From positions 109,707,837 through 109,771,836 of the forward strand of contig OX328125.1 of assembly GCA_946811695.1 (NCBI GenBank): a DNA stretch of 64,000 nt, read 5' to 3'. Below the pieces are notes generated by a model. It did not search any database. It worked only from the letters and a program-made list of their open reading frames with translations, and had not been told where the DNA came from. Origin of the DNA: Gonocerus acuteangulatus (Eukaryota; Arthropoda; Insecta; Hemiptera; Coreidae). The translations under genes were made by a program, and so were the position numbers. Shown here in pieces: positions 23,944 to 38,600 of the stretch (positions are counted from its first letter, which is position 1; the number at the start of each line of letters is the position of its first letter).

Positions 23944-24357
23944 TGTGATGTTCGGGGTTTCTGAATCATTTGAACCAGTATTTTCCTCTGAAAATTCCCG
24001 CTCTTTAATATTTCCCTTTTCTATCTTTTTTACTTTTATAATGTTTTTTGTTTGTGATTTATTTATTTTTGATTTATTTATTTTCGTCTTTCTTCCATCA
24101 CTCGCTTTTCTAGATAAAGCATTATCTTTGCTACTGCGTACATTGGACACACAAGGCGTAACTATATTCTGTAAGACACCTGATAGAGCTTCTGAAGTAG
24201 TATATACTTTATTATCTATGAACAATTTGTCGTATATAAGTTTAGCCGGCATATTTAGGGATCTAGCTTTTTTTAAATAAGGAACGAGAATTTTCCGACT
24301 ATTTCTGGTTTCTCTTGTAAAATCAGGTGATATAATTATTCTTGTTTTGGCAAGCAT
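23941..24357 (-). pseudogene. LINE ORF1 C-terminal fragment
   Basis: Reads MLAKTRIIISPDFTRETRNS, then RKILVPYLKKARSLN and KLIYDKLFIDNKVYT, the pattern of the ORF1 C-terminal domain in insect non-LTR elements (basic DFT.E.R..R..L.P.LK.AR followed by Y.KL.I...Y). It ends in a basic KSKINKSQ region. Flanked by the EN fragment downstream and coiled coil upstream. Confidence 0.55.
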
Positions 24358-24517
24358 TTTAATCGATTGGAGTATTTTCCTTTTTAGACTAGCAGTTGTT
24401 AATCTTAATAGAATCGGTCGATTTTTTAAACTATCTTTTTTCCCTATTGGCTTTATAAAATCTATTTCAGAATCATTTATTTTAATTTTTCAGCAAAAAC
24501 CTTTGTAATATAATTCT

Positions 24518-24785
24518 TTAAAGAGTCAAAATTTTCTCCAGGATGTTGTAAATAATGAGATTTTTCTCCCGTTTGTATAATTCAAGTTTAAGCTCCCAGT
24601 TTTTTAAGTTATTTTCCAACATTTTGTATTTTTCCTCCAAGGTATTGATTTTTGTAAGAATGTTCGAGAACTCCTTGTTCATTAAGGTGGTTTGCTCTTT
24701 AATTTGTTCAACATTAGAAGAAGCGTTATTCAACTCTGATTTAATTATAACTAATTGATTACTAGTTTCCTGTGTATTACAAGAA
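24518..24785 (-). pseudogene. LINE ORF1 coiled-coil N-terminal fragment
   Basis: The open frame begins upstream of the ATG (QETSNQLVIIKSELNNASS) and continues through MNKEFSNILTKINTLEEKYK and ENNLKNWELKLEL, a heptad coiled coil as in L1-type ORF1 trimers. Frameshifts separate it from 23941-24357. Confidence 0.55.
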
Positions 24786-24893
24786 TATAGGATGTGCTAA
24801 AGTTAACGATAATTTTGAAGATGATCCCACAATCTTAAAGAGTTTCATTTTCTATTTATTAAAAAGAAAAAAATATATTTTCTTTTAGTATAA

Positions 24894-25565
24894 ATGAGTA
24901 ACAAATATAAAATTAAGATTTATCATAAAGATTTATCAAAAAATGAGAATATGTTCCCATATCCTTTGAGATGTATTATCGTCGGTTCTAGTGGTTCTGG
25001 GAAGACAACATTACTAGAAAATTTCATTTATAATAAAAACTGGATAAAATATGATTATTTGTATGTATGTAGTAAATCTTTAGAACAAGAAGTGTATCAA
25101 ACAATGCAAGAATTATTCTCTAACGTTTCAGATGAACTCGATGAAGAAATTGCATTCTTTTATAGCGAAATCGAAGAAATACCTAATGTTGATGAATGTA
25201 AAGAAAATAGTTTAATTATTTTCGATGATTGTGTTTTAGAAAATCAAGATAAAATTAAGGAATATTTTGTGAGAGGTCGACATAAAAACATTTCATGTTT
25301 CTATCTAAATCAATGTTATTCTAGATTAGATAGGCAATTTATAAGGAATAATGTAAATTTTTTATGTGTTTTTAAACAATCAGATCATTACATGGATTTA
25401 TTATTTAAAGATTTTACTGGAACTGATTTTGAGACAAAACAAAAATTTAAAGAATTTTGTAATGATTGTTGGAATCATGATTTCGGATTTATATCTATAA
25501 ACTTAAATAAAAAGAAGAGTAATGGTAAGTATATGTTTAAATTTGAGAAGACTTTAGAACATTAA
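24894..25565 (+). CDS. A32/FtsK-HerA-type DNA packaging ATPase, 223 residues
   Basis: In Mavericks, adenovirus-like and nucleocytoplasmic large DNA viruses this ATPase drives genome packaging into the capsid. Here the Walker A motif GSSGSGKTTLL is at residues 31-41, Walker B LIIFDDC at 107-113, and the RGRHKNISCFYLNQ segment (about 127-140) holds the conserved Arg-His and the sensor Gln. The length is close to the usual 200-270. The frame is intact. The start is preceded by TTTTAGTATAAATG. It lies 46 bases upstream of the PLA2-domain gene on the same strand. Confidence 0.85.
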   Translation: MSNKYKIKIYHKDLSKNENMFPYPLRCIIVGSSGSGKTTLLENFIYNKNWIKYDYLYVCSKSLEQEVYQTMQELFSNVSDELDEEIAFFYSEIEEIPNVDECKENSLIIFDDCVLENQDKIKEYFVRGRHKNISCFYLNQCYSRLDRQFIRNNVNFLCVFKQSDHYMDLLFKDFTGTDFETKQKFKEFCNDCWNHDFGFISINLNKKKSNGKYMFKFEKTLEH

Positions 25566-25611
25566 TCATTTAGACCACTTTAACTCACTTTAACTTTTTT
25601 GAGCTTTATAA

Positions 25612-26074
25612 ATGGAGAGTAATACATCATTTGAAAAAGCGAAAGAAATTAAAAAAATAGAAAATGATTTAATTAAAAAATTTAAAAATGCACGACAGCA
25701 AAGAATAATCGAAGAAAATTCTAAAACTAAAGAATATGCTCCAATAACTGGAGCTATCGAAAAGCTTAATGAAACCATGACTCATGTAGATCAGGGAATA
25801 CAACATTTATTAGAACAAAATAAAACTTTAATTACAGATGTTATTCCATTTACTAAAAGTATCGCAGAAATGGAAATCCCACCGTCTTCTGAGTCATCGT
25901 TTGATGAGGATATGTATACTCCAGCGGGGAAAAGCACACCATTTCCAAAGAAAGTAAAATTTGTTCCAATGGAAAAAGTTATAGAAGATTCATCAGAGAC
26001 AGAATTAAGTGAAGATAGTTTAAATGAATCAAAAAGTTCTAGAAAATCAGATTCTTCATCATCTAGTAATATTA
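25612..26074 (+). pseudogene. PLA2-domain virion-type protein, N-terminal part (cut by insertion)
   Basis: First about 154 codons of a gene that continues at 26910. It has a basic coiled-coil N-terminus (MESNTSFEKAKEIKKIENDL), a second helix around ITGAIEKLNETMTHVDQG, then a Ser/Glu-rich linker. The annotatable ORF runs to 26199 only by reading into the inserted GT-rich DNA; the residues after 26074 (VYVCIRARVYTHVRV) are not viral. The start context GCTTTATAAATGG matches the other genes here. The 8-bp TAATATTA at 26067-26074 is repeated at 26902-26909. Confidence 0.7.
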
Positions 26075-26909
26075 TAGTTTATGTATGTATACGTGCACGG
26101 GTATATACACATGTGCGGGTGCGTATGTATGTACATATGTGGTTGTATGATTGTATGAACGTGGGCGTATGTGTATATACGTGTGCTAGTTTAATTTAGA
26201 ATTGGCATTATTATAAATTTTGTTATGTAGTATAGTTTTAGTATTAATATTGCTTACATTAGCATTATTTTTAGTACAAATAGTTGTATTAGTTATGTTT
26301 AGTTTTTATTAGTTACTTAGTTTGTATTAGTTAGTTAGTGTTTTACTAAAAAAAAAAAAAAAAAAAATGATATATAAAAAAATTACAAAAGAGGAAAAAA
26401 AATATATATACATAAAAAAATATATATGTATTAAAAAATATAACAAATAAAATTATACATAAAGGAAAAAACAAACAAAAAAAATAATAAATAAAAAATA
26501 AAAATAAATAAATAAATAAAAAATATGAAAAATAAATAAATAAAAAACTATACAAGAGGGGGAAAAATAAATATGTAAATATTAATATGGTTATGTAGAC
26601 TATTATTTGTTATGTAGTATATTATTTGTATTGATAGTGCTATAGTGTATATTAGTATTACTTTTAGTACAAATAGTTCCATTACCTAGTAAGTTAGTAG
26701 TAAGCAATGATATTAGTTGAAAAAGAAAATTGAATACAAGTTATAAAAAAAAAAAAAAACAGTTCATTGTCATGCACTGTCCTAAACACAAATTACTAAC
26801 CCTTTCACGACATATACACGACTCTCTAACATTACACTTCAGGGCAGTGAGGACCTAGATGTTTTCTGCCCTTAAACACCCAATCCATCCATCCATCCAT
26901 CTAATATTA
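26075..26909. mobile_element. 835-bp insertion with 8-bp target-site duplication
   Basis: TAATATTA flanks the insert (26067-26074 and 26902-26909). 835 bp leaves a remainder of 1 after division by 3, exactly the frame difference between the two gene parts. The interior is GT/GTAT microsatellite-like at the left (26080-26190), AT-rich in the middle, and carries a GGGCAGTGAGGACCTAGATG stretch before a (CCAT)n end. A simple-repeat tail suggests retroposition; the 8-bp duplication would also fit a DNA transposon. No inverted ends were seen. Confidence 0.65.
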
Positions 26910-27841
26910 GTCCAATTATAGGTCCTATTGGAGCAACATATTTACCAAAACTAACTGATAGACATTATGGAATTACTTACGATGAAAAGCAATCATTTTT
27001 TAAAATCGGAAGGAATAAAGTTGACATAGATTGAAATGATTTAATTATTGCTGGGAAAAAATATATTGGAACAAAAGGATTGTGGGTTTTATTAACACAA
27101 AATTATGAACACTTATTCAATAAAGAAGGTAAAGAATTATATTCGCCAGAAGAATTTAATACGTATAAAGAAATTCTAATTAATAGTAGGGCTTTATATG
27201 AAAAAAAAACAAACTCATCAACAAAGAGACCAAAAGTTCCACAATCAAAAAAATATAAATATTTATTAAAACCGGTATATGAAGAAATGAAATCTTCTGT
27301 TTCAGGAAAAGGGATTGTTAATTATAATCAACATTCTGTTACATATATAAATAATTTAAATGAATTAATTTCAAGATTGAATTTAATATTATCATCTGAA
27401 TTAGCAGGAGATAATAATTTCCATAATGAAAAGGTTGGAATAATTAGATTTTTGACAAATCTTTTAGAAAAAAATGTCGATGATAAAAAAGGAACTGAAT
27501 ATCTCATAAGAATCGTTAATGCTCTTCCACATAAGATAATTAAAGATGAAACTATCGGATCTGGATTATTTAACAAAATTTTAAATAATATACCAATGCC
27601 TGAAATGCATCTTCCAGGTGGCTATAATTATTGTGGACCTTTTACAAAATTAGATGAAAGATTGGCCAGAGGTGATCAACCGATTAATAAATTAGATGCA
27701 TCTTGTCAAGATCACGATATACATTATAGAGATCATGAAGGAGTTTCAGACAGACATATCACAGATAAAATTTTAGAAAACAAAGCATGGGAAAGAGTAA
27801 TCTCAGTTAATAAATACAGAAATAATCATGACTTCTTATAA
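26910..27841 (+). pseudogene. PLA2-domain virion-type protein, C-terminal part
   Basis: The frame is open across the junction except for a TGA at 27032-27034, where relatives have Gly in a D-G-N/D-D-like context. The first part (SPIIGPIGATYLPKLTDRHY ... GTKGLWVLL) resembles the conserved domain of unknown function seen in arthropod Maverick proteins. The C-terminus is a parvovirus-VP1-like phospholipase A2: YNYCGPFTKLD as calcium-binding loop and CQDHDIHYRDH with the catalytic His-Asp and supporting Tyr (about 27629-27740). In parvoviruses this enzyme breaches endosomal membranes; the role here is inferred. Counting both parts and leaving out the insert, the gene is 465 codons including the stop. 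Confidence 0.75.
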
Positions 27842-28064
27842 GCCATATAAAATTTCTCTTACAGATAATCAAAAATCTAAAATCGCTAATTCTTTAAAAA
27901 AGAAAACGGATGCAACAATTCAAACAACAAAAGGTACATATAAAATTTTACTAACTCAAAGACAAATTAGTAATATTGAGAAAAACTCAAAAGATGGAAA
28001 GAATGTAAGTATCACTTTGACTTACAAACAGTTGAACTATAAAGATGAAACCAATAGAAGTTAA
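27828..28064 (+). CDS. Small basic protein, 78 residues, overlapping the PLA2 gene end
   Basis: The ATG at 27828 overlaps the last codons of the PLA2 gene (14-base overlap), suggesting co-expression. It has two similar segments, KISLTDNQKSKIANSLKKKT and KILLTQRQISNIEKNSKDGK, each an L/S-x-x-Q helix with basic residues. Proteins of this pattern follow the PLA2/DUF gene in related elements, as I recall; function unknown. The last residues (about NYKDETNRS) overlap the integrase remnant in another frame, so the true C-terminus may have been replaced by a deletion joint. Confidence 0.55.
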   Translation: MTSYKPYKISLTDNQKSKIANSLKKKTDATIQTTKGTYKILLTQRQISNIEKNSKDGKNVSITLTYKQLNYKDETNRS

Positions 28065-28482
28065 TAAGAAGAACAAAGAAAAAATATTAATGAATATTTA
28101 TAGCGTCAGCAGAGCAGACTTAGTCTGTGACAATGATAAGAATGTGAAAAATGAAAAACCGAAATTTAAATTAAATGATTATGTAAGGATAAGTAAATAT
28201 AAAGGAATATTTGAAAAAGGATATACACCTAACTGCTCTACTGAAGTTATCAAAATAAATAAAATAATAAATTCCATTCCTATTAATTATAAAATAAAAG
28301 ATTTAAATGAAGAAGAAATTGAAGGCAGATTTTATAAAGAAGAATTAATGAAAACAAAATATCCACGTGATTATTTAGTTGAAAAAGTTTTAAAGAAAAA
28401 AGGAGATAAGGTATATGTTAAATGGATAGGATTTGATAGTTCACATAATAGTTGGATAAATAAAAAAAATGTTGGAAATTAA
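28045..28482 (+). pseudogene. Retroviral-type integrase, C-terminal remnant with chromodomain
   Basis: Mavericks carry an rve-family DDE integrase with a C-terminal chromodomain. This 145-residue frame begins at the very end of the catalytic domain (MKPIEVNKKNKEKI, normally just after the last helix), continues with the SH3-like region (FKLNDYVRISKYKGIFEKGY, YTPNCSTEVIKI), and ends in a chromodomain (YLVEKVLKKKGDKVYVKWIG, then FDSSHNSWI with the aromatic cage Trp). The zinc-binding HHCC and the D, D-35-E catalytic residues are missing: only 14 bases separate the neighbouring gene's overlap from it. The ATG is internal and shared by chance. Confidence 0.75.
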
Positions 28483-28495
28483 GAATATAAACCAG

Positions 28496-28530
28496 ATGAA
28501 CTTTTTTAAATCCTACAAACATTTCAAAAG
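28496..28530 (-). promoter_or_regulatory. Stray copy of the shared upstream motif
   Basis: On the minus strand: ATGTTTGTAGGATTTAAAAA followed by AGTTCATC, close to the GCAGGATTTTAAAGA-TTCA block found before several genes here. It is not followed by a start codon in position, and may be left over from a deleted gene. Confidence 0.35.
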
Positions 28531-28531
28531 A

Positions 28532-28807
28532 TTAAATTTGTATAATATTATTATAAAATTTTTCACTTCTAGAAAGTAAATTGCATTTATTAAAACATAT
28601 AAAAAACATTTCTCTTATTAATATAAAAATTTGAATAACGATTCCCAATAAATTTAGAAAATATAACAACATTAATGTATATCTATAATAATTGGATAAT
28701 GTTACCGAACACAATGTATCTTTTGTTTCAAAAGAACCAGACGAACCGAATATATAATATTTACATTTTACAACTTGTGGAAATATTAATGGTTTGTGAT
28801 TAAACAT
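28532..28807 (-). pseudogene. Innexin homologue, C-terminal half (extracellular loop 2 and TM4)
   Basis: Innexins form invertebrate gap junctions and hemichannels: four membrane helices and two extracellular loops with two Cys each. This piece has FPQVVKCKYYIFGSSGSFET then KDTLCSV. The two Cys are 17 residues apart, as in innexin loop 2, and the KC..H/Y.(Y/F)G.SG(S/T) and LC.(V/L).L patterns fit. A hydrophobic helix follows (YTLMLLYFLNLLGIVIQIFI), as in TM4, with a short cytoplasmic tail. The other half lies 112 bp upstream on the same strand (28920-29417). The ATG at 28805-28807 is probably internal. Confidence 0.7.
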
Positions 28808-28818
28808 AATTTTTTCTG

Positions 28819-28875
28819 AATTGAATAACTCATCATAAATTTTATTGTCAATAATTTATGATGAGTTATTCAATT
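28819..28875. repeat. Hairpin between the two innexin halves
   Basis: AATTGAATAACTCATCATAA and its inverted copy enclose a loop of about 12 bases. It sits where the cytoplasmic loop and TM3 of the innexin should be encoded. It could be a tiny inverted-repeat element, or a stem-loop left by deletion. Confidence 0.6.
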
Positions 28876-28919
28876 AACTTTAAATAATATATTTAAAAAA
28901 TAAAAAACTCCTATAAAAA

Positions 28920-29417
28920 TTAATAAGAAAATACTGTCAAAATCATATAACTAATATAATATTTTTTATGATTTATTATTGGTAAGTCATTTTTTAAATC
29001 GATATGAGATAAACTTATATTATTAAATCTTTTCCAAAAAAAATCTGGTAATAATAAAAATAATCCTATAAAAAAATATATTACATGCATCCATGGATAA
29101 TATCTTATATATTTCAAATCATTTTTATTTTCATTCATAATACCTTTATCAGGTACTCGTAAAATATCTTTGTTTGATTTAGCAGTAAAATTATTTAATA
29201 CTATAAAAATTTCCCCAGATTCACATAAACTATTTGAAAATGGACTTAACTGATTTGAAATACATTCTAAACTTTGCTTTCTTAAAATAAATGGAAATCC
29301 TGATACAATAATAAATGTCAATCCTATTATATTAATGTATCCAAAATAATTTCCTTTTAAACTTTTTTCAAAATTTTTGTTAAAATGTTTGTAATGCTTA
29401 TCAAAAATTGATTGCAT
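28920..29417 (-). pseudogene. Innexin homologue, N-terminal half (TM1, loop 1, TM2)
   Basis: 165 residues from ATG at 29415-29417. A short cytoplasmic N-terminus, then TM1 (YINIIGLTFIIVSGFPFIL), loop 1 with ECI...LCES (12 residues between Cys, 13 in typical insect innexins), VP-x-x-GI before the second helix, and the family signature region YYPWMHVIYFFIGLFLLLPD ending FFWK. Innexins have YYQWV...PRxLWK at this point. A full innexin is about 360-400 residues; this one breaks after TM2. It runs opposite to the ATPase, PLA2 and polymerase genes and starts TTAATAAATGC, the same start context as the viral genes. Viral innexins are known from polydnaviruses of parasitoid wasps; one inside a Maverick is unexpected to me. 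Confidence 0.75.
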
Positions 29418-29429
29418 TTATTAAGAAAG

Positions 29430-29511
29430 AATTTTGATCAAATTGATAAACAGAGATTTAAAATAAAAATAATTAAATTTGAAAAGATATTTAAAAAAGA
29501 TTTTAACTAAT
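29430..29511 (+). pseudogene. Fragment paralogous to the small protein at 30457-30618
   Basis: One frame reads DQIDKQRFKIKIIKFEKIFK, nearly the same as LIDNQRFKMRIIEFEKIFKK in the 53-residue protein. The N-terminal part is gone; it ends TAATAA before ATGG. It looks like the tail end of a duplicated gene. Confidence 0.5.
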
Positions 29512-29535
29512 AAATGGAAAATCTAATAATCTAAT

Positions 29536-30135
29536 TTAACTTCTTGAATCTGAAACATGTTCAAGTAAATCATCTTCTGTACATTCTTTATTTGTTATTC
29601 TAAAATAATTTCCATGAAATTTTAATAATTCTGTAAATTGTGTGTTAAATCTTTCTTTCATTCTATTATAAAAGTTAATACTGTTAGGATCGATAAATAT
29701 TCTCAGTTCATAAAAATTTGGATGTTTTAATTTTATTTTATTTCGAACTTTATCTATATTTCGTACTTGACATCTAGAAACATAATAAGTATATTCACAT
29801 TCGTCATCATGTAACTTGAATAATATAAAACAATTTTGATAATCTTTATTTTCAGTTTCATATACAATATAGGGCTTTATTTGTTCTCGTGAATTTTTAT
29901 AAATTAAAATTTCTTTATCTTTCTCATTTATAATTTTATCTTTACTGCATAATTCTTCTTTCAATTTATATTCTCCTGTTTTTCTTATTGTTTTAATAAC
30001 ATTATAAACCCAATCTTGAAATGTTTCAGCTAAAGGCATTTTTGATTTCATAATTAAAGAATATAAACCTAATCCATTAATAAAAATAGTTGATTTCTCG
30101 TTACCTTTCAAAGGTAGCGATTCGCTACCTTTCAA
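29536..30135 (-). pseudogene. BRO-family protein, C-terminal part
   Basis: About 199 codons continuing the BRO-N fragment at 30140-30325 in another frame. It starts with the end of a BRO-N domain (GNEKSTIFINGLGLYSLIMK, then SKMPLAETFQDWVYNVI and IRKTGEY, which fit the 'E.GLY.L...S..P.A..F..WV...VLP.IRK.G.Y' pattern). A charged linker follows, then a C-terminal domain with YTYYVSRCQVRNIDKVRNKI and IDPNSINFYNRMKERF, which resembles the C-terminal domain of poxvirus/entomopoxvirus-type BRO relatives (DUF3627-like; from memory). BRO proteins bind DNA and act in baculovirus and large DNA virus infection. Confidence 0.65.
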
Positions 30136-30139
30136 TTCT

Positions 30140-30325
30140 TCAAAGGATTTTTTTATATTTTCCGTTTATAAACTTCTTGATTGTTTCTTTTGTATTTTTA
30201 TATTTTAATAATTCAGCGATATCTTTAGCCTTAAACCATGGATCGTTATTTTCATCTAGAATTATAAATATTTCTTTATTATCATAGTTAAGTTTGTTGT
30301 TGAGAATATTTAGCATGCTCTCCAT
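30140..30325 (-). pseudogene. BRO-family protein, N-terminal fragment
   Basis: From ATG at 30323-30325: IFIILDENNDPWFKAKDIAE then LLKYKNTKETI, the N-terminal strand-helix of the BRO-N DNA-binding domain (WF.A.DIA..L.Y.N...AI). The frame then shifts: offset to the next part is 190 bp, one more than a multiple of three. The joint lies in a short repeated sequence (ACCTTTCAA twice around 30102-30137), so a small local duplication probably broke the gene. Confidence 0.65.
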
Positions 30326-30366
30326 TTATTAGTACTGAAATCTTTAAAATCCTGCAAATGTTTCCC
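30323..30366 (-). promoter_or_regulatory. Shared upstream motif and TAATAAATG start (BRO gene)
   Basis: Read on the minus strand: AACATTTGCAGGATTTTAAA, then GATTTCAGTACTAATAAATG. The same block stands before the genes at 31551 and 32020. Confidence 0.65.
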
Positions 30367-30456
30367 CCATACCGAATCGGTATCCCGAACTTTTTAAACT
30401 TAATTTCTGATATATTTTGAAGAATTGGATATGAATAAAGATTTTTTAAATTATAA

Positions 30457-30618
30457 ATGAAGAAGTTAAGATTTAATGATCTTGTAACTATTTATGAAAT
30501 ACCTTATGAATGTAGAATTAATTTTAATTTAATTGATAATCAGAGGTTTAAAATGAGAATAATTGAGTTTGAAAAGATATTTAAAAAATATGTTAATAAA
30601 AATAATTCTAATAAATGA
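30457..30618 (+). CDS. Small protein, 53 residues, with a KLRF motif
   Basis: ATG at 30457 (context TTATAAATG) to TGA at 30616-30618, overlapping the next start at 30615. It begins MKKLRFNDLVTIYEIPYE and ends in a basic helix RIIEFEKIFKKYVNKNN. The K-[LV]-R-F-x-D-x-V-x-[IV]-Y/H pattern resembles RVxF protein-phosphatase-1 docking motifs; that reading is speculative. A second, truncated relative lies at 29430-29511. Confidence 0.5.
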   Translation: MKKLRFNDLVTIYEIPYECRINFNLIDNQRFKMRIIEFEKIFKKYVNKNNSNK

Positions 30619-30893
30619 TGGAAGAACTGAAAAGTAAGAACATTTCCGATTTGCGAAAAATCTGTAAAGAAAAAAACTATCAAGGTTATTCTAAACTGAG
30701 AAAGCAGGCATTAATCGATTTAATATTACAAAACATTAATGATAATTATAATGAAGAAAAATTAAGTAATAAAAATATTGGTGAATTAAGACGTTTAGGA
30801 AGTAAGTATAAAGTAAAAAATTATTACAATATGAAGAAATCTGTTTTAATTAACTTAATAGAAGAAAAAATGAAAGAATCTCAAGAAAAATAA
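30615..30893 (+). CDS. SAP/Rho-N-like repeat protein, 92 residues
   Basis: Two copies of a 35-residue helix-turn-helix-like motif: LKSKNISDLRKICKEKNYQG then YSKLRKQALIDLILQNI, and SNKNIGELRRLGSKYKVKNY then YNMKKSVLINLIEEKM. Such motifs (SAP, LEM, Rho-N family) usually bind DNA or RNA. The polymerase gene has two more copies at its N-terminus. It is followed by a broken repeat of its own second half (30957-31120), so the original gene may have been longer and run into the zinc-ribbon ORF at 31132. Confidence 0.6.
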   Translation: MMEELKSKNISDLRKICKEKNYQGYSKLRKQALIDLILQNINDNYNEEKLSNKNIGELRRLGSKYKVKNYYNMKKSVLINLIEEKMKESQEK

Positions 30894-31135
30894 AAAAGAA
30901 GAAAATTTAATTCAAGAAGATATGAATTTTGAAGAAGATATGGATTTTCATGATGAATTAAGTAATAAAAATATTAATGAATTAAGACGTTTAGGAAGTA
31001 AGTATAAAGTATAAAAATTATTACAACATGAAGAAATCTGTTCTAATTAACTTAATAAGAGAAAAAATGAAAGAATCTCAGAAAAATAAAAAAAGAAGAA
31101 AATTTAATTCAAGAAGATATGAATTTTGAAGAAAT
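30770..31135 (+). repeat. Local tandem duplication within the SAP-like gene
   Basis: TTAAGTAATAAAAATATT ... GAATTAAGACGTTTAGGAAG and GAAGAAATCTGTT...AACTTAATA recur about 190 bp apart. The second copy has stop codons and small indels. Confidence 0.7.
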
Positions 31136-31504
31136 ATATTTTCATGTTACAAATGTGGAAATAAAAGTGTATTAAATGATAGATGTTATTTCTGTGAGCC
31201 AGAAATCAAAAGCAAACATAATAAAAGATCATACAGACTTAATAGATTTCGTAAAAAATTATTGAATTTAATAGAAGATGGTAATGATAGAGGTAAAATT
31301 GAACAAATAAATATATATAATATATATAATATTTATAATAAATATAAATATTTGATCAAAAAGATTGCAGATTATTTAAAAATAATGAATAATATCGAAA
31401 TTAAGGAAACTAAGAGAGATGTAAAAATATGGAGTGAGTTTATTGATAAAATTGAAATGGAAAAACGATTTCGAGGGAATATTTTAAAACAGATGATCGT
31501 GTAA
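31132..31504 (+). pseudogene. Zinc-ribbon small protein, 5' end broken
   Basis: The frame is open from 31132 and lacks a start. CYKCGNKSVLNDRCYFC gives two Cys pairs (C-x2-C-x8-C-x2-C), followed by RSYRLNRFRKKLLNLIEDG and a helical tail with LIKKIADYLKIMNNIEI and VKIWSEFID. The gene at 31551-31895 has the same order and similar residues, so the two are paralogues. ATG-only prediction would place the start at 31262 and lose the zinc site. Confidence 0.55.
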
Positions 31505-31520
31505 AATTTTGCAAGATTTT

Positions 31521-31553
31521 GTAAGATTTTAAAAACTTCATTCCTAATAAATG
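31521..31553 (+). promoter_or_regulatory. Shared upstream motif and TAATAAATG start
   Basis: GTAAGATTTTAAAAACTTCA then TTCCTAATAAATG: a diverged instance of the shared block. The preceding TTTTGCAAGATTTTG looks like a half-duplicated copy. Confidence 0.55.
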
Positions 31554-31895
31554 GAGGAATTAAACCCTTTTAAATTTTGTCAAATCTGTTGTATGGAAAG
31601 TGTTTTAAATAACTGCTGTTATAATTGTTATCCACCAAAAAGAAATCCTCATAATAATTATAAATATAGAGAGAGATATTTTCATAAGTATATATTACAG
31701 TTAATAGTTAAATATGAAGATTTAATTAAAATTGAAGATTTATTTGATGTTTTTAATGAAAATTATAAAGGAAAAGCTTTACCATATACATTTTTTATTG
31801 CAAAGATAGCAGATTTATTAGAAATTAAACATAATATTCGTATACTTAACTCAGAAAGAAATAAGATGTTGTGGAATGAATTTTTAGAGATGTAA
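31551..31895 (+). CDS. Zinc-ribbon small protein, 114 residues
   Basis: Intact. FCQICCMESVLNNCCYNC carries the two Cys pairs (C-x2-C-x9-C-x2-C; exact pairing uncertain because of extra Cys). Then YRERYFHKYILQLIVKYEDL and a helix with FFIAKIADLLEIKHNIRI and MLWNEFLEM. Paralogue of 31132-31504. Function unknown; the zinc site plus a helical body would suit a transcription or replication accessory. Confidence 0.6.
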   Translation: MEELNPFKFCQICCMESVLNNCCYNCYPPKRNPHNNYKYRERYFHKYILQLIVKYEDLIKIEDLFDVFNENYKGKALPYTFFIAKIADLLEIKHNIRILNSERNKMLWNEFLEM

Positions 31896-31983
31896 CCATT
31901 TGAGATAATTGAAAAGAAAAAACAATTTAAAAAATATATTTTAAGTCAATTTTAATATATTTTTTATGATGGAAACATTTGCA

Positions 31984-32022
31984 GGATTTTCAGGATTTTA
32001 AAGACTTCATTTGTAATAAATG
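31984..32022 (+). promoter_or_regulatory. Shared upstream motif and TAATAAATG start (polymerase gene)
   Basis: CAGGATTTTAAAGACTTCAT then TTGTAATAAATG, preceded by AACATTTGCAGGATTTT. This is the best copy of the motif; the BRO gene's copy matches it over about 25 bases. Confidence 0.65.
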
Positions 32023-32514
32023 GAAACTCAACTGAGAAACCAAACTCTTAAACAACTTCGAGATTATTGCAAATCTCATAATATTGTAGGATATTATAAA
32101 TGTAATAAGAAAGATGATCTTATAAATCATATTCTTGAAGAGTTGGAAAAAAGGAAATTTATAAATGAATTCAACTTTGATTCTAGTTTGTTTTCTAAAC
32201 CAAAACCTGATAAAAACTTAAATTTATGGACGATGAAACAATTATGTGAATATTGTATATTGAAAAATATTAAAAAACATTGGCAATTTAATAAAAAAGC
32301 TGATTTAATAAATCTCATTACTGATGGTGAAGAAAGAAAAAATATGAGAAAAAAATTAATAAATCGAACTAAAAAAAGAGCTCTAAATCAATCCAAAAAA
32401 ACATCAATAAATGAATTCAATTTCCATCCAAGTTTATTTTCAAAATCTAAATCACCTAGAGAGAAACAAATAAAATGTGAAGATTGCAATAAATTTTATA
32501 AAAAAATCATATAA
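32020..32514 (+). pseudogene. SAP-like N-terminus of the family B polymerase gene
   Basis: Two SAP/Rho-N-like motifs (LRNQTLKQLRDYCKSHNIVG, KPDKNLNLWTMKQLCEYCIL) and a basic linker lead to KCEDCNKFY, the first half of a C2H2-like finger. The matching His pair (KEKHIESLAH) lies in the polymerase frame. The two frames meet in a run of seven A at 32500-32506: one base too many moves the reading frame by +1. So this ORF and the polymerase are probably one gene of about 1,300 codons whose frame was broken by a homopolymer indel. Programmed slippage is an alternative. Confidence 0.6.
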
Positions 32515-34943
32515 AGAGAAGCATATTGAATCTTTAGCACACAAGAAATTATTAATTAATGATGAACAAGAAATTCAGGAAATTGAAACAGCTTACGATT
32601 CAAGATTAAAAACATATCTGATTAAGAATACAAAAGATTATGTACTTCCACGAGTGTTTTTAGAAGATAAAAGAAATATAGTAATCAATAAAATATCAGA
32701 AGTTTCAAGAAAAATGGACTTGAAAGTTAATCTTAAATTCTTCCTTACCTTTCGAAGAGAAAAAGAATTTCAAGATTTTGCATTCAAAACACAAAATAAA
32801 ATCATATTACAATCTTCAGATCTAAATACATTTTATGATAATGCTATTCGGAAATTTATTAAAGAAATGGATGAGTTTATGGATAAAGGATCAGGATGGG
32901 TACTTGCAGGTATTGATAATTTAGAACTAAGAATTAAAAAATATAGCCCATTAAGAGGTTCTTCATATATTGATTTACCAGAAAAAATAAAAGCAAAACA
33001 AGCAATTATTAATGTGAAAAATAACGATAATAAGTGTTTTATGTGGTCTGTTCTTTCAGCAATTTATCCAGTAGATAAAGATCCTCAAAGAGTTACAAAA
33101 TATGAATCGGTTAAAGATAAATTAGATTTTAAGGGAATAAACTTTCCTGTTTCTTTTGCAGATATAAATAAATTTGAAAAACTAAACAATATATCTATAA
33201 ATGTTTATGGATATGAAGAATCTGTTCATCCTCTAAGAATTACTAAAAACAAATTAGATAAACATGTAAATTTGTTTTATATTAAGAATGAACAAAATGA
33301 TCATTATTGTTGGATTAAGGATCTCTCTAGGTTAATCAAAGAACAAGTAATAAATAAGAAAGTTAAAATTTATACATGTGAAAGATGTTTAACATATTAT
33401 TATTCATCTGAAAAATTAGAGGAACATGAGCTTGATTGTAAAAATAAAACAGCTGTTAAAATTGAAATGCCTAGGAAAGGTGAAACTTTACATTTCAAAA
33501 ACTATAACAGATCTTTAAAAGTCCCTTTCGTCATTTATGCAGATTTCGAATGTTTAACTAAGAAAATTGATACTTGTCAACCTGATCCATCTCAATCATA
33601 TACTATGAAATACCAAAAGCATGAGCCAAATAGTTTTTGTTATTATGTTAAATATGAAAATGATGATTATAAAGAACCTGTAGTATATAGAGGAGCCGAT
33701 TGTGTTGATAAATTTTTAGAAATGATTCGAGAGGAAGTTAAAGATATTCAGAAGATTTATAAGGATGTTAAACCATTAAAAATGGCTTTTGAAGAAGAAA
33801 AGCATTTTCAAAAATCTGATATTTGTCATATATGTGATAAAGATATAGAAGGAAAGAAAGTAAGAGATCATGATCATTTAAGTGGTAAATATAGAGGTCC
33901 AGCTCATGAAACTTGTAATTTGAATTATAAAAATCCTTCATTTGTTCCAGTATTTATCCGTAATTTGTCTGGTTATGATGCTCATCTATTTGTTAAAGCA
34001 ATGGGAAAATTTGAGGTAGATATTGATGTAATTCCAAATACAGAACAGAAATATATATCATTCAAACAAAAAGTTGGTGATTTGAATATACAATTTTTTG
34101 ATTCATTCAGATTTATGGCAACAAGCATAGATGCATTATCATCAAATTTAAGAAAACTGCCTGAAGAATTGAGAGAAAAAATTAAAAATCATCCTACTAA
34201 AATTCGAAAGCTAGAAGAATACAAATTCTTGAAATCTATGTTTAGGGAAACATCTAAATATTACAATGAAGAAAAATTAGATTTGATTACAAGAAAAGGT
34301 GTGTATCCTTATGATTATGTTGATTCAGAAGAAAGATTTGAAGAAACTGAATTACCTCCGATTAAAGACTTTTATAATAAGTTGAATGATTATAATATAT
34401 CCGAAAACGATTATAGACATGCACAAAAAGTATGGAAAAATTTTGAAATTAAAAACTTAGGACAGTATTCAGATTTATATGTTAAATCGGATGTATTAAT
34501 ATTAGCTGATATATTTGAAAACTTTAGAGATGTTTGTTTAAAAAACTATAATCTTGATCCAGCATGGTATTTCACAGCTCCTGAATTATCTTGGGATGCG
34601 ATGTTAAAAACAACTAAAATTGAGTTGGAGTTATTAAATGATTATGATAAGATTTTAATGTTGGAAAAAGGAATCAGAGGAGGAGTTTCACAATGTTATA
34701 ATAGATATGGAAAAGCAAATAATAAATATATGAAGAATTATGACAAGAATCAACCATCGAGTTACTTAATGTACTTGGATGCTAATAATTTATATGGTTG
34801 GGCTATGAGTCAATATTTACCTTATGAAGGATTCGAATGGTCAGATACAGAGATAGATGTAATGAATATACCAGATGATTCAGAGAAAGGATGTATTCTA
34901 GAGGTTGATCTTGAATATCCGAAAGAATTACATGATATTCATT
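32507..34943 (+). pseudogene. Protein-primed family B DNA polymerase, first part (exonuclease and motif A)
   Basis: Replicates the element from a terminal protein, as in Mavericks, adenoviruses and phi29-like phages. Residues counted from 32477: a Cys/His finger near 305-320 (CERCLTYYYSS...H), Exo I YADFEC at 354-359, a Cys/His insertion at 450-478 (CHICDKD ... DHDHLSGKYRGPAHETC), Exo II LSGYDAHLF near 497-505, Exo III YVKSDVLILADIF at 668-680, and motif A YLDANNLYGWAMSQYLP from 766. After 34943 the frame reads into inserted DNA and ends in nonsense at 35161. The gene continues at 35251 in the next frame. Confidence 0.85.
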
Positions 34944-35250
34944 GTTTGATGTTATTTTTCGTCGCTGGGATAGTATTTTTGGATGGAACGGCATTTTTCT
35001 CCAGCGGTGGTACTCCTCCTCACTTCTTCCTGGAATATTTTGATGGATTCATCTCCATCTTCTTCAGCCAGGTACTTGTTTCTTCCTCGGTGGTAGCCAA
35101 GGGAAGATCCCTTAACTTCTTCCCTTGGCTACCACTGAGGAAGAAACAAGTACCTGGCTGAAGAAGATGGAGATGAATCCATCGAAATATTCCATGAAGA
35201 AGTGAGGAGGAGTACCACCACTGGAGAAAAATGCCGTTCCATCCAAAAAT
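34944..35250. mobile_element. Foldback (long-TIR) insertion in the polymerase gene
   Basis: Arms 34975-35106 and 35118-35250 are nearly perfect inverted repeats of about 132 bp with an 11-bp spacer. The flanks repeat ATGATATTCATT (34932-34943 and 35249-35260; its first two bases may belong to the element). The step between the two copies is 317 bp. 31 bp at the left (34944-34974) have no partner at the right. A 9-10 bp duplication with long TIRs is typical of Mutator-like or Foldback elements; class assignment is inference. The minus-strand ORFs here (35020-35329) are artefacts of the palindrome. Confidence 0.85.
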
Positions 35251-36285
35251 GATATTCATTCTGATTTACCATTAGCTCCTGAGAATGGAATCCCAGGTAA
35301 TTCAAAATATGCAAAGCTATTAACAACATTATATGATAAAGAAAGGTATGTTATTCATTATAGAAATTTAAAGCAATGCTTGAATATGGGATTGAAATTA
35401 AAAAAGATTCATAGAGTATTGGAATTCAAACAATCAGCGTGGTTGAAAAAATATGTAGATCTCAACACTAAAAAGAGAACTCAAGCTGTGAATGATTTTG
35501 AGAAAGACTTTTACAAGTTGATGAATAATTCAGTGTTTGGTAAGACAATGGAAAATATAAGGAAAAGAATTAATGTAAAATTATGTAATGATTATGAGAA
35601 AGTTGAAAAATTAATAGCAAAACCAATTTTTAAAGGAAGAACTATTTTTGATGAAAATTTAACTGCTATTCATATGAATAAAACAAAAGTTTATTTTAAT
35701 AAACCTATATATGTTGGTATGAGTATATTGGATTTATCGAAGTATTTAATGTATGATTTCCATTATAACACTATGAAACCTAAATATGAAAATAATATTA
35801 AATTAATGTATATGGATACAGACAGTCTTATATATATGATTAAAACAGAAGATTTTTATGAAGACATGAAAGATATGATTGAGTTATTCGATACTTCAGA
35901 TTACCCTGTTGATAATAGATATAATATGCCTAGAATTAATAAGAAAGTATTAGGAAAAATGAAGGATGAAAATAATGGATTAATTATGGAAGAATTCATA
36001 GGGTTAAGATCTAAAATGTCTCACAAAAATGAAAGAGTAATATGTAAGAAATCGAAAGGTATTAAGACATGTGTTGTAAAAAATAAAATAACATTTGAAG
36101 ATTATAAAGATTGTTTATTCAATAAAAAAGATCATTTTAGAAGTGTGAATCTATTCAGAAGTTTCAAACATGAAATATATTCAGTTGAAGTTAATAAGAA
36201 AGCTTTATCAGCAGATGATGATAAACGATATATTTTAGAAGATGGAATCAATACTAGAGCATTAGGACATTATAAAAATGTTTAA
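35251..36285 (+). pseudogene. Protein-primed family B DNA polymerase, second part (motifs B and C)
   Basis: The open frame resumes directly at the second copy of the duplicated target site and runs to TAA at 36285, so the ATG at 35380 is not a start. It includes the motif B region (KKYVDLNTKKRTQAVNDFEK, then NNSVFGKTMEN at 35524) and motif C YMDTDSLIY (35809-35835) with both catalytic Asp, then the C-terminal thumb region (ILEDGINTRALGHY). Apart from the insertion and the A-run frameshift no stops were seen, so decay looks recent. Confidence 0.85.
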
Positions 36286-36350
36286 ATTGATTGTAATAAA
36301 GGTTTTTATAAAATTGATTAATTTTATTTGATAAATTTTATTTGTAATAA

Positions 36351-36680
36351 ATGGAAGCATTGAAAAAGATTCAGCTAGTTCGTCAATGTCAAAATATTCC
36401 AATAAAGAAACTATCAGAATTGAAATGTGGTCAATCTTATCCAATTAAAGAATTTAAAGAAATTTCAACAAAATATGGAAAACGAATAGTTGTTACTTTA
36501 AAACAAAAAGAAGATAAATTTCAAGTTTTTCTACCAGATAGATTTAATGATAAATTAAATAAAAAAGATATTCAACAATTAAATTCACAAAAACTATTTT
36601 TTGTTTACGATGGTTTAAAAGATATAAGTGGTGGTAAGTCAATGCATATTATTAACTTTCGAGAAAACAAAGATGTCTAA
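36351..36680 (+). CDS. Small OB-fold-like protein, 109 residues
   Basis: Start context TTTGTAATAAATGG as in the other genes. The alternating strands LKCGQSYPIKEFKEISTKYG, KRIVVTLKQKEDKFQVFLPD and KLFFVYDGLK look like a five-strand OB-fold, the shape of single-strand DNA-binding proteins. Position directly after the polymerase supports a replication role. No residue-level family match is claimed; OB-fold is an inference from pattern. Confidence 0.5.
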   Translation: MEALKKIQLVRQCQNIPIKKLSELKCGQSYPIKEFKEISTKYGKRIVVTLKQKEDKFQVFLPDRFNDKLNKKDIQQLNSQKLFFVYDGLKDISGGKSMHIINFRENKDV

Positions 36681-36789
36681 AACCGTTCAATCCGAGAAAA
36701 ATGAAAGTGATTAAATTAATTGTATAATATTTTTACTTTTTGAGGATAACCCATTTTTTATATATATATTTTTTTAATTTTGGATGTTT

Positions 36790-37060
36790 AGGGAAAAATC
36801 GTTAAAAACCCAGCGATCAGGTTTTTTCAGGAAAATGGGGTATTTGGAAATGCGCTCAGAAATTGAGAAGTTTTTTAGGATCCTGAAAAAATCTACAATC
36901 AGATGGATGATGGTATTTTTTAGAAACCTCCGCATTTTGAGGTAATTTTGGGGGTATTTTAGATACTATGTGTAGTGGGATTTGGAATTTTGTATTAAAA
37001 TCATCATAAACCCAGCGATCAGGTTTTTTCGGGGAAATGGGGTATTTTGGAAGTGCGCTC
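36790..37060 (+). repeat. Direct repeats at the element's right flank
   Basis: AACCCAGCGATCAGGTTTTT ... AAATGGGGTATTTGGAA ... TGCGCTC occurs at about 36807-36857 and again, with few changes, at 37008-37060. It may be subterminal DNA of the Maverick; no counterpart was found at the left end. Confidence 0.6.
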
Positions 37061-37093
37061 GTAACCCCCTTTTCCTTCTACTCTCGCCGCTCC

Positions 37094-37207
37094 ACTATGT
37101 TTTCACCCTTACTCAGTCTCATTTCTATTATTTAACTGAAGAAGAAATTTACTATGTTTTCACCCTTACTCAGTCTCATTTCTATTATTTAACTGAAGAA
37201 GAAATTT
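37094..37207 (+). repeat. 57-bp tandem duplication
   Basis: ACTATGTTTTCACCCTTACT starts two identical units at 37094 and 37151, followed by a third partial AC. The 83-residue ORF covering it repeats accordingly and is not credible. Confidence 0.85.
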
Positions 37208-37232
37208 ACAGAACAGTGTCCTATATCCAATA

Positions 37233-37732
37233 ACACTTTTATTGCAACAATACATTATACAACGACCCAATACCTTCCCTATCTCCAGCTTGGGGGAAGA
37301 AGGTAATATAGTAAAAAGTCCTACTCGCAGGAACTGCGTCATCTTAGCGCGGTTCCGTTCTTATCCCTAATGTTTGGAGAGATTTAAATAGAAACAGGTA
37401 TAATTTTGGTCAGACCTTTTATGAAATAATTTATGAGCACAAATAGATTAAGGTTGTAAGGGTACGTACCTCTACCTGACATAGAAAAATAACTCCCTGA
37501 CCTCCCTATGGAGGGATGGAGGAGCTGCACAAACAACCTTATAAGCGGGGTTACTCCCTATGAAGGGAGGAAGGAACCGCGCTAAAACTAGTTTTTCCCA
37601 AGAATGTTTGGATATATTCTTATATATTAAGGCATACATTCGAAGGCTTATCAAATTTATTACAAAAAGCGATTCTTGATTTTTGATAGAGAGATCTGAT
37701 TCAGAGAACTTGGTTCTTAAAAACGATAAGCA
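37233..37732. other. Intergenic DNA, no gene seen
   Basis: Contains two related GC-richer bits (GCGGTTCCGTTCTTATC at 37350, GGAACCGCGCTAAAAC at 37572), weakly inverted. No coding signal. Confidence 0.4.
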
Positions 37733-37897
37733 GGCCCCCGGCGTGAGTGCTAATGCCTCCGTGTCGCGGGTTCGATTCCCATTAAGGTTTGTGACTTTTC
37801 TTTAGAAAAAAGGGAAGGTATCAGCCCTTCCAGGCTAGACAAGGGGATAATCCGTCCTAAAATTCGTTGTCAAAAATAAATGGACGTTAACATTTAT
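37733..37897 (+). mobile_element. Degenerate SINE copy
   Basis: CCGGCGTGAGTGCTAATGCC, GTGTCGCGGGTTCGATTCCC, and AAAATAAATGGACGTTAACA remain, with deletions. Confidence 0.65.
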
Positions 37898-37904
37898 TTA
37901 TATT

Positions 37905-38105
37905 TGGTAAAAATGAAGTTTCACGCCCTCCAAACAGATTTCTTTCAAATTTTGCACAATAACGTATTTTGATGCACGAAACACGAATACGATAAAAAAA
38001 AAAACAAAAAAAAAAACGTCGGATTTAACTAGGAAAGAAGTTATTAAGCACTTAAGTGCACTGTTCTGCAGGTTATGCAGTTTCACGCCCTCCAAATCGG
38101 TTTGG
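37905..38105 (+). repeat. Fragment of the 6831-7511 foldback family
   Basis: GAAGTTTCACGCCCTC, CAATAACGTATTTTGATGCA and TAACTAGGAAAGAAGTTATT match the foldback arm. Another fragment is at 38603-38830. Confidence 0.7.
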
Positions 38106-38394
38106 ATTTGGTGAATTTTTACCTGATATTTTAACGTTCATTCTGGTTAACTAGGAATTAATAATACCGTTAAAATTTAAATAAAACTGACAATTTTAAC
38201 TGTCCTTTTTAGACAATTCGGCAGATATCAACTCTATCATATGTTTGTAGCCTAACCTATATGATAGCTAACGAAACATAATGTCTAGTACAGTAGGTCT
38301 AAGATAACATCCTGCCGAGGAGATCCTAGTCGTTTCGTTCTTGTCACATCTAGAAGTAAGTACGTTATTATCAATCCATTATACATTTCATGAG

Positions 38395-38600
38395 GGAGGC
38401 CCGGTGGCCGTGAGTGTTAAGGTGTGAGTACTTAACACTCAGTGCCAAGGGTCGTGGGTTCGATCCCCACTATAGGGAGGTGACATTTCTTTAGAAAAAA
38501 GAAAAATCATCATCTCTATCCTAGCTAGAAAAGGGTGGCAACCTATAGATAACCCGTCCTAAAATTCTGAGTTAATTATAATGGACGTTAAAATTTAATG
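38395..38600 (+). mobile_element. tRNA-derived SINE copy, full length
   Basis: GGCCCGGTGGCCGTGAGTGT, TCGTGGGTTCGATCCCCACT, and TAATGGACGTTAAAATTTAA. The tail joins another repeat fragment (38603). Confidence 0.8.

Follow-up and report, generated by a model that had tools for sequence, protein, structure and literature searches.

The window, a 64,000-nt stretch of genomic DNA from Gonocerus acuteangulatus, contains a decayed Maverick element and, within its span, an innexin gene broken into three pieces on the minus strand. The features of the element are as follows (the probable polymerase was recognised from motifs read by eye).

24877-37082, no strand assigned: decayed Maverick, approximate span, set by how far DNA similarity to copies on C1 extends
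24894-25565, plus: packaging ATPase of the poxvirus A32 type (PF04665, 1.2e-12)
27035-27841, plus: gene with a phospholipase A2-like (PLA2-like) domain (PF08398, 2.1e-11)
27828-28064, plus: small conserved ORF belonging to the element (matched by tblastn in L026, L027, L029, L049 and L053)
28036-28482, plus: integrase C-terminal remnant (86% identity to the integrase of C1:169)
28532-28855, minus: innexin 3' piece, with extracellular loop 2, TM4 and a short tail (PF00876, 31.7 bits)
28819-28875, no strand assigned: hairpin of 57 nt, an inverted duplication seen in the window copy only
28873-28950, minus: innexin TM3 stretch in another frame, from alignment to an uninterrupted copy (no Pfam match alone)
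28920-29417, minus: innexin 5' piece, with TM1, extracellular loop 1, TM2 and the cytoplasmic loop (PF00876, 35.5 bits)
29415-29423, minus: TAATAAATG start signal of the innexin, shared with other gene starts of the element
29536-30325, minus: BRO gene interrupted by a frame break (PF02498 matched by each piece, PF12299 by one of them)
30615-30893, plus: Rho_N/SAP-like gene (PF07498, 5.7e-16)
31551-31895, plus: conserved gene, no function given (tblastn matches in L025-L027, L029, L049 and L050)
32020-32514, plus: Rho_N/SAP-like gene (PF07498, 4.8e-07)
32477-36285, plus: probable family-B DNA polymerase, interrupted
36351-36680, plus: conserved gene with a TAATAAATG start, no function given (partial match in L025)

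The element was placed among the Mavericks by two genes found with HMMs, the A32-type packaging ATPase and an rve integrase, both of which it shares with Mavericks/Polintons and adintoviruses; a probable PolB and a putative cysteine protease were recognised by eye. The integrase core of the C1:169 copy matched PF00665 (3e-13), while the window keeps the C-terminal part only, with a Chromo-like end that scored 22.3 bits, below the cut-off of 25.1. The interrupted ORF at 32477-36285 is what we take, from its motifs, to be the family-B polymerase, and it gave no polymerase family match in Pfam, in NCBIfam or, for its second piece, in PDB. The putative cysteine protease corresponds to ORFs with THWVSYY...CGHL in L053 and L026 and with a variant of it in L049, for which there was no Pfam protease match. 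A major capsid protein was not seen among the stretches read. No terminal inverted repeats were detected between 24000-25000 and 36200-38600 of the window; this is a decayed copy whose ends may have been lost, and the Maverick assignment therefore rests on the gene set.

The first-pass annotation had read two minus-strand ORFs, 28920-29417 (165 aa) and 28532-28807 (91 aa), as the halves of an innexin, and the profile search bore this out, since each translated piece exceeded the curated cut-off of Pfam PF00876 (Innexin), 25 bits. The 5' ORF scored 35.5 bits (E 8.7e-09), with residues 35-135 aligned to profile positions 20-116, and the 3' ORF scored 29.7 bits (E 4.9e-07) over positions 212-282, rising to 31.7 bits (1.2e-07; positions 200-282) when this piece was taken from stop to stop (28532-28855). 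The two pieces thus matched the profile separately and in order. The motifs described earlier were all recovered, namely the loop-1 Cys pair and YYPWM...PDFFWK in the 5' ORF and, in the 3' ORF, the FPQVVKC...LC block, whose two Cys are separated by 17 residues. The cytoplasmic loop and TM3, by contrast, had been called missing and are not: the loop forms the end of the 5' ORF, and TM3 lies in another frame at 28873-28950, where the stretch matches the uninterrupted copy from the same genome, being too short to match a Pfam family alone. The four hydrophobic segments of the window innexin are distributed over three pieces. The innexin signature is YYQW(V), with a proline in TM2. The Maverick protein has YYPWM, i.e., P for the Q of YYQWV, with the proline and WK kept; in an alignment of 38 rows, in which it stood with 37 proteins of insects or crustaceans retrieved with Inx2, the 5' ORF's C52 and C65, YYxW, TM2 proline and WK were all invariant.

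A common start context had also been noted. The innexin start and BRO do share it; the second innexin ORF, the ATG of which is internal to the gene, does not. Six of the window element's 10 gene starts, including that of the innexin, have this context, TAATAAATG, versus 4 of 499 other ATGs taken from both strands (Fisher p 1.8e-9); the start of the PLA2-like gene, an uncertain TTG, was scored as a miss among the ten. The gene starts that carry it lie at 29417, 30325, 30615, 31551, 32020 and 36351. Over the whole window, 15 matches were observed against 3.8 expected, and the five copies whose alignment reaches the start have an identical innexin start context. TAATAAATG resembles poxvirus late promoters, TAAATG. 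A GCAGGATTTTAAA-like element stands upstream of TAATAAATG in some genes, and similar repeats were seen by eye at a junction that has no innexin.

The assembly from which the window was taken (1.1 Gb) was searched with the uninterrupted 282-aa protein of one copy, yielding 18 matches, of which 15 fell at ten Maverick-innexin loci and 3 were weak ones to host innexins. Other Maverick genes were present near the innexin in nine of the ten loci within the stretches examined, and the tenth, C9:93.02, has innexin fragments only. The check for related elements that the first-pass annotation had proposed revealed the innexin between integrase and BRO in six loci (the window, C1:91, C1:139, C1:169, C26 and C31:104), one of these with an uninterrupted frame. 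At C1:165 the integrase is present and a BRO match absent, at C15:16 BRO is present and an integrase match absent, and the C5:10 locus is rearranged.

The uninterrupted frame comprises 282 codons and scored 70.7 bits against PF00876. Its product has hydropathy peaks at residues 27-45, 109-127, 151-169 and 237-255, and Cys 52 and 65 together with Cys 206 and 224 provide two cysteines in each extracellular loop; these four peaks and the two Cys pairs indicated an innexin topology. Within the window the gene is flanked, as claimed at first, by Maverick genes, the integrase remnant on one side and BRO on the other. Since it begins with the element's own start signal and recurs at multiple Maverick loci, we regard it as a captured gene of the element rather than neighbouring host DNA, and that it belongs to the Maverick is, in our judgement, almost certain.

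The other copies differ by a few percent, whereas the innexin remnants at C5:10 and C9:93 are about 60% identical to the uninterrupted protein; this points to a gene of greater age than those other copies. C26 was also considered as an older copy, having 77% protein identity, and was rejected, as its DNA combines low divergence with frame breaks.

The damage to the window element is ordinary decay of an insertion. A 57-nt hairpin had been reported at the gap between the ORFs, and it is indeed present at 28819-28875, with a 23-bp stem and an 11-nt loop; the 131-nt stretch around it gave a folding z of -5.78, and no Rfam match was obtained in window positions 24000-38000. In a six-copy alignment, both the hairpin and the TM3 frameshift were private to the window copy and absent in the five others. 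The BRO gene beside this innexin is likewise split, and the integrase has lost its catalytic part. As to damage elsewhere, an inverted repeat at 34970-35255 (138-nt arms, 96% complementary, 10-nt spacer) interrupts the probable polymerase gene. Little remains of the integrase in two innexin-bearing copies, the window element and C1:139 (L027 5310-5354); the extent of the loss differs between them.

A large group of sister elements does without the gene. Integrase and BRO relatives were scored for 150 of 477 and 144 of 229 candidates, respectively, and 120 of the 150 integrase matches had a BRO among these within 5 kb, the other 30 being uninformative. In 118 of the 120 pairs the two genes lie 15-25 bp apart, leaving no room for an innexin, and the remaining two pairs, with gaps of 1051 and 1340 bp, both bear one. 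At the sister locus L053, for example, integrase and BRO are adjacent with nothing in between. In two near relatives, similarity to the window stops at 28517 (C5:134.2) and 28510 (C31:66.2) and resumes at 29444. They lack window positions 28518-29443 and 28511-29443, respectively, i.e., the innexin and about 15-25 bases on each side, in place of which stand short unrelated spacers. By eye these spacers are alike, in opposite orientation, and so the two loci probably share one event. Trees of the flanking genes, from which rows covering less than half of the region were omitted, did not separate gain of the innexin from its loss.

The Maverick innexin matched all six host innexins tried, at 20-28% identity (best E 2.7e-18 in a set of eight sequences), the matches covering about residues 30-265 of 282 in four of them and shorter spans in the other two. 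It has in common with insect innexins (Inx2 and others) the four hydrophobic segments, two Cys per extracellular loop, YYxW and the TM2 proline, and it differs in this low identity, in having YYPWM for YYQWV and in a loop and tail shorter than those of Inx2. In a tree with host innexins, its terminal branch measured 5.72 changes per column and had no supported neighbour, and the tree names no donor. A divergent host innexin at C15:42.93 Mb (L010, L012, L016 and L021) has YYPW for YYQW, like the Maverick protein; grouping the two gave a p-AU of 0.501, which does not reject the grouping and is no evidence of kinship. Host Inx2 is closest to hemipteran sequences among the named proteins compared (Panstrongylus, 90.5%; Triatoma, 90.0%; Apolygus, 89.1%), and four further proteins are nearer to it, at 92-97%. 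Viral contigs yielded no relative when scanned with either innexin piece, with the C-terminus of the integrase or with an alignment of Inx2; the Inx2 scan used two N-terminal patterns, one of which (MFDVFGS) is absent from the Maverick protein. Phages gave no match to the 5' piece, and PHROGs and NCBIfam gave no innexin match.

Innexins carried by viruses are known from two other settings, and the analogy with wasp vinnexins drawn in the first-pass annotation proved apt, with the nimavirus innexins of crustaceans as further published cases. Vinnexins are described as innexin genes of ichnoviruses, e.g., Campoletis sonorensis ichnovirus, that have no introns (PMC7016691, PMC4553618). Functional gap junctions are attributed to them, and two of them, when expressed in caterpillars, are reported to have depolarised hemocytes, slowed development and weakened encapsulation (PMC8402728). 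The Maverick gene resembles them, as they are described, in being an intronless innexin in an insect virus, whereas vinnexins are delivered by the wasp and strongly similar to insect innexins (PMC7016691) and the Maverick protein is only 20-28% identical to those of its host. Among nimaviruses, an innexin is recorded in the endogenous Nimav-1_LVa (g155; PMC7016691), and the innexins of majaniviruses are described as forming their own clade (PMC10871703). Here the likeness is to an integrating arthropod DNA virus with copies in the host genome, again by description; the nimavirus genome is given as about 280 kb and its innexin as having four exons (PMC7016691), in contrast to the single frame and far smaller element seen here. 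PMC4553618, in its passages on innexin and on maverick, treats the two separately. An innexin or other gap-junction gene was not found for Mavericks/Polintons or adintoviruses in searches of an open-access library.

Innexins form hemichannels and gap junctions. We propose that a Maverick lineage took an innexin from an animal, the direction of transfer being the probable one, and kept it as its own gene between integrase and BRO. The compact four-helix protein would be made in infected cells during replication of the element and would travel to the cell membrane. There it may assemble into hemichannels or gap junctions, either by itself or together with host innexins, and would thereby alter the electrical and chemical coupling of infected cells with their neighbours. 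The likeliest benefit to the element would be blunted immune or death signals, or local spread. By analogy with vinnexins, it is likeliest that the Maverick protein changed the coupling of infected cells; the vinnexin precedent and the identity of the protein as an innexin both lead to this reading. To an element-borne innexin and channel action taken together we assign a probability of roughly 0.7. For the channel mechanism as such the odds look about even. Against the proposal as a whole we counted the YYPWM in place of the signature YYQWV, the interruption of nine of the ten innexin loci, the large sister group that manages without the gene, the lack of clear purifying selection among the copies and the failure of the viral-contig and protein database searches to find a relative outside this genome.

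The main rival is a blocking subunit, in which the viral innexin would assemble with host innexins and close or trap the channels they form, uncoupling the cells without creating a new channel. The short cytoplasmic loop, the tail of about 27 residues past TM4 versus about 66-70 in host Inx2 and the changed YYQW signature are what such a subunit might look like. Both extracellular Cys pairs are nevertheless kept, so that loop docking or folding was presumably important, and vinnexins are said to form functional junctions (PMC8402728); we consider this alternative unlikely, though it deserves to be kept in mind.

It is less probable still that the innexin is passive cargo, acquired by accident and carried without use. 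Such cargo would account for the fact that most copies are broken and that a numerous sister group has none, and comparisons among the copies give no clear purifying selection. Private changes at codon positions 1, 2 and 3 sum to 22, 13 and 25 (C1:165 omitted), a count of low power for purifying selection, and dN/dS for the innexin, likewise of little power, was 0.25-1.86 in 15 pairs and 0.33-1.10 in four further pairs (both analyses omitted codons that contained gaps or stops). Among other genes of the element, the ATPase and PLA2-like genes gave 0.16-0.20, the integrase 0.45-0.51 and BRO 0.28-0.56, and constraint on the innexin looks weaker than that on the ATPase and PLA2-like genes. Against accidental carriage stand the placement of TAATAAATG, the element's own start signal, at the innexin, the uninterrupted frame that keeps the full set of innexin features at so low an identity to host innexins, by which past selection on the gene is indicated, and the older remnants at about 60% identity; taken together, these would call for a long time under selection.

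Lastly, that the product is some other four-helix viral membrane protein, innexin-like by chance, would suit the PDB sequence search (nothing for the 5' piece; for the 3' piece Innexin-6 at E 0.42, below an unrelated protein at E 0.39) and the protein database search, in which candidates were proteins sharing short exact words (21 for the 5' piece alone, none at E 10; 343 for both pieces joined by a run of X, none at E 1), yet the 70.7 bits of the uninterrupted copy against PF00876, the ordered match of both halves to the profile and the presence of all four Cys make it vanishingly improbable.

If the preferred reading of an element-borne, coupling-altering innexin is true, Mavericks join ichnoviruses and nimaviruses as innexin carriers, and innexins in several virus groups would indicate that arthropod DNA viruses have repeatedly been selected to control the coupling of cells. 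To our knowledge, the effects of Mavericks on infected animal cells are hardly known, and the innexin would be a concrete host-interaction gene for them. The presence in one genome of related elements with and without an innexin at the same place also raises the question of the gene's use, gain or loss. A bolder version, which we hold to be rather doubtful, is that insect Mavericks maintain a long-lived, virus-specific class of innexins, gained and lost as a cassette beside the integrase, which would rewire the coupling of infected cells, and that these Mavericks, in passing from one species to another, might even have supplied innexins to other viruses and insects.

Two further observations concern the elements at large. 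Among the copies (L025-L027, L049 and L050), BRO is more variable than the innexin, with 84-98% DNA identity to the window versus about 95-98%, and this difference suggests mosaic exchange of part of BRO. Moreover, at least 118 integrase-BRO pairs at a spacing of 15-25 bp, many with equal scores, and open integrase frames of 325 aa were recorded in this genome, and the Maverick burst is apparently very large and recent.
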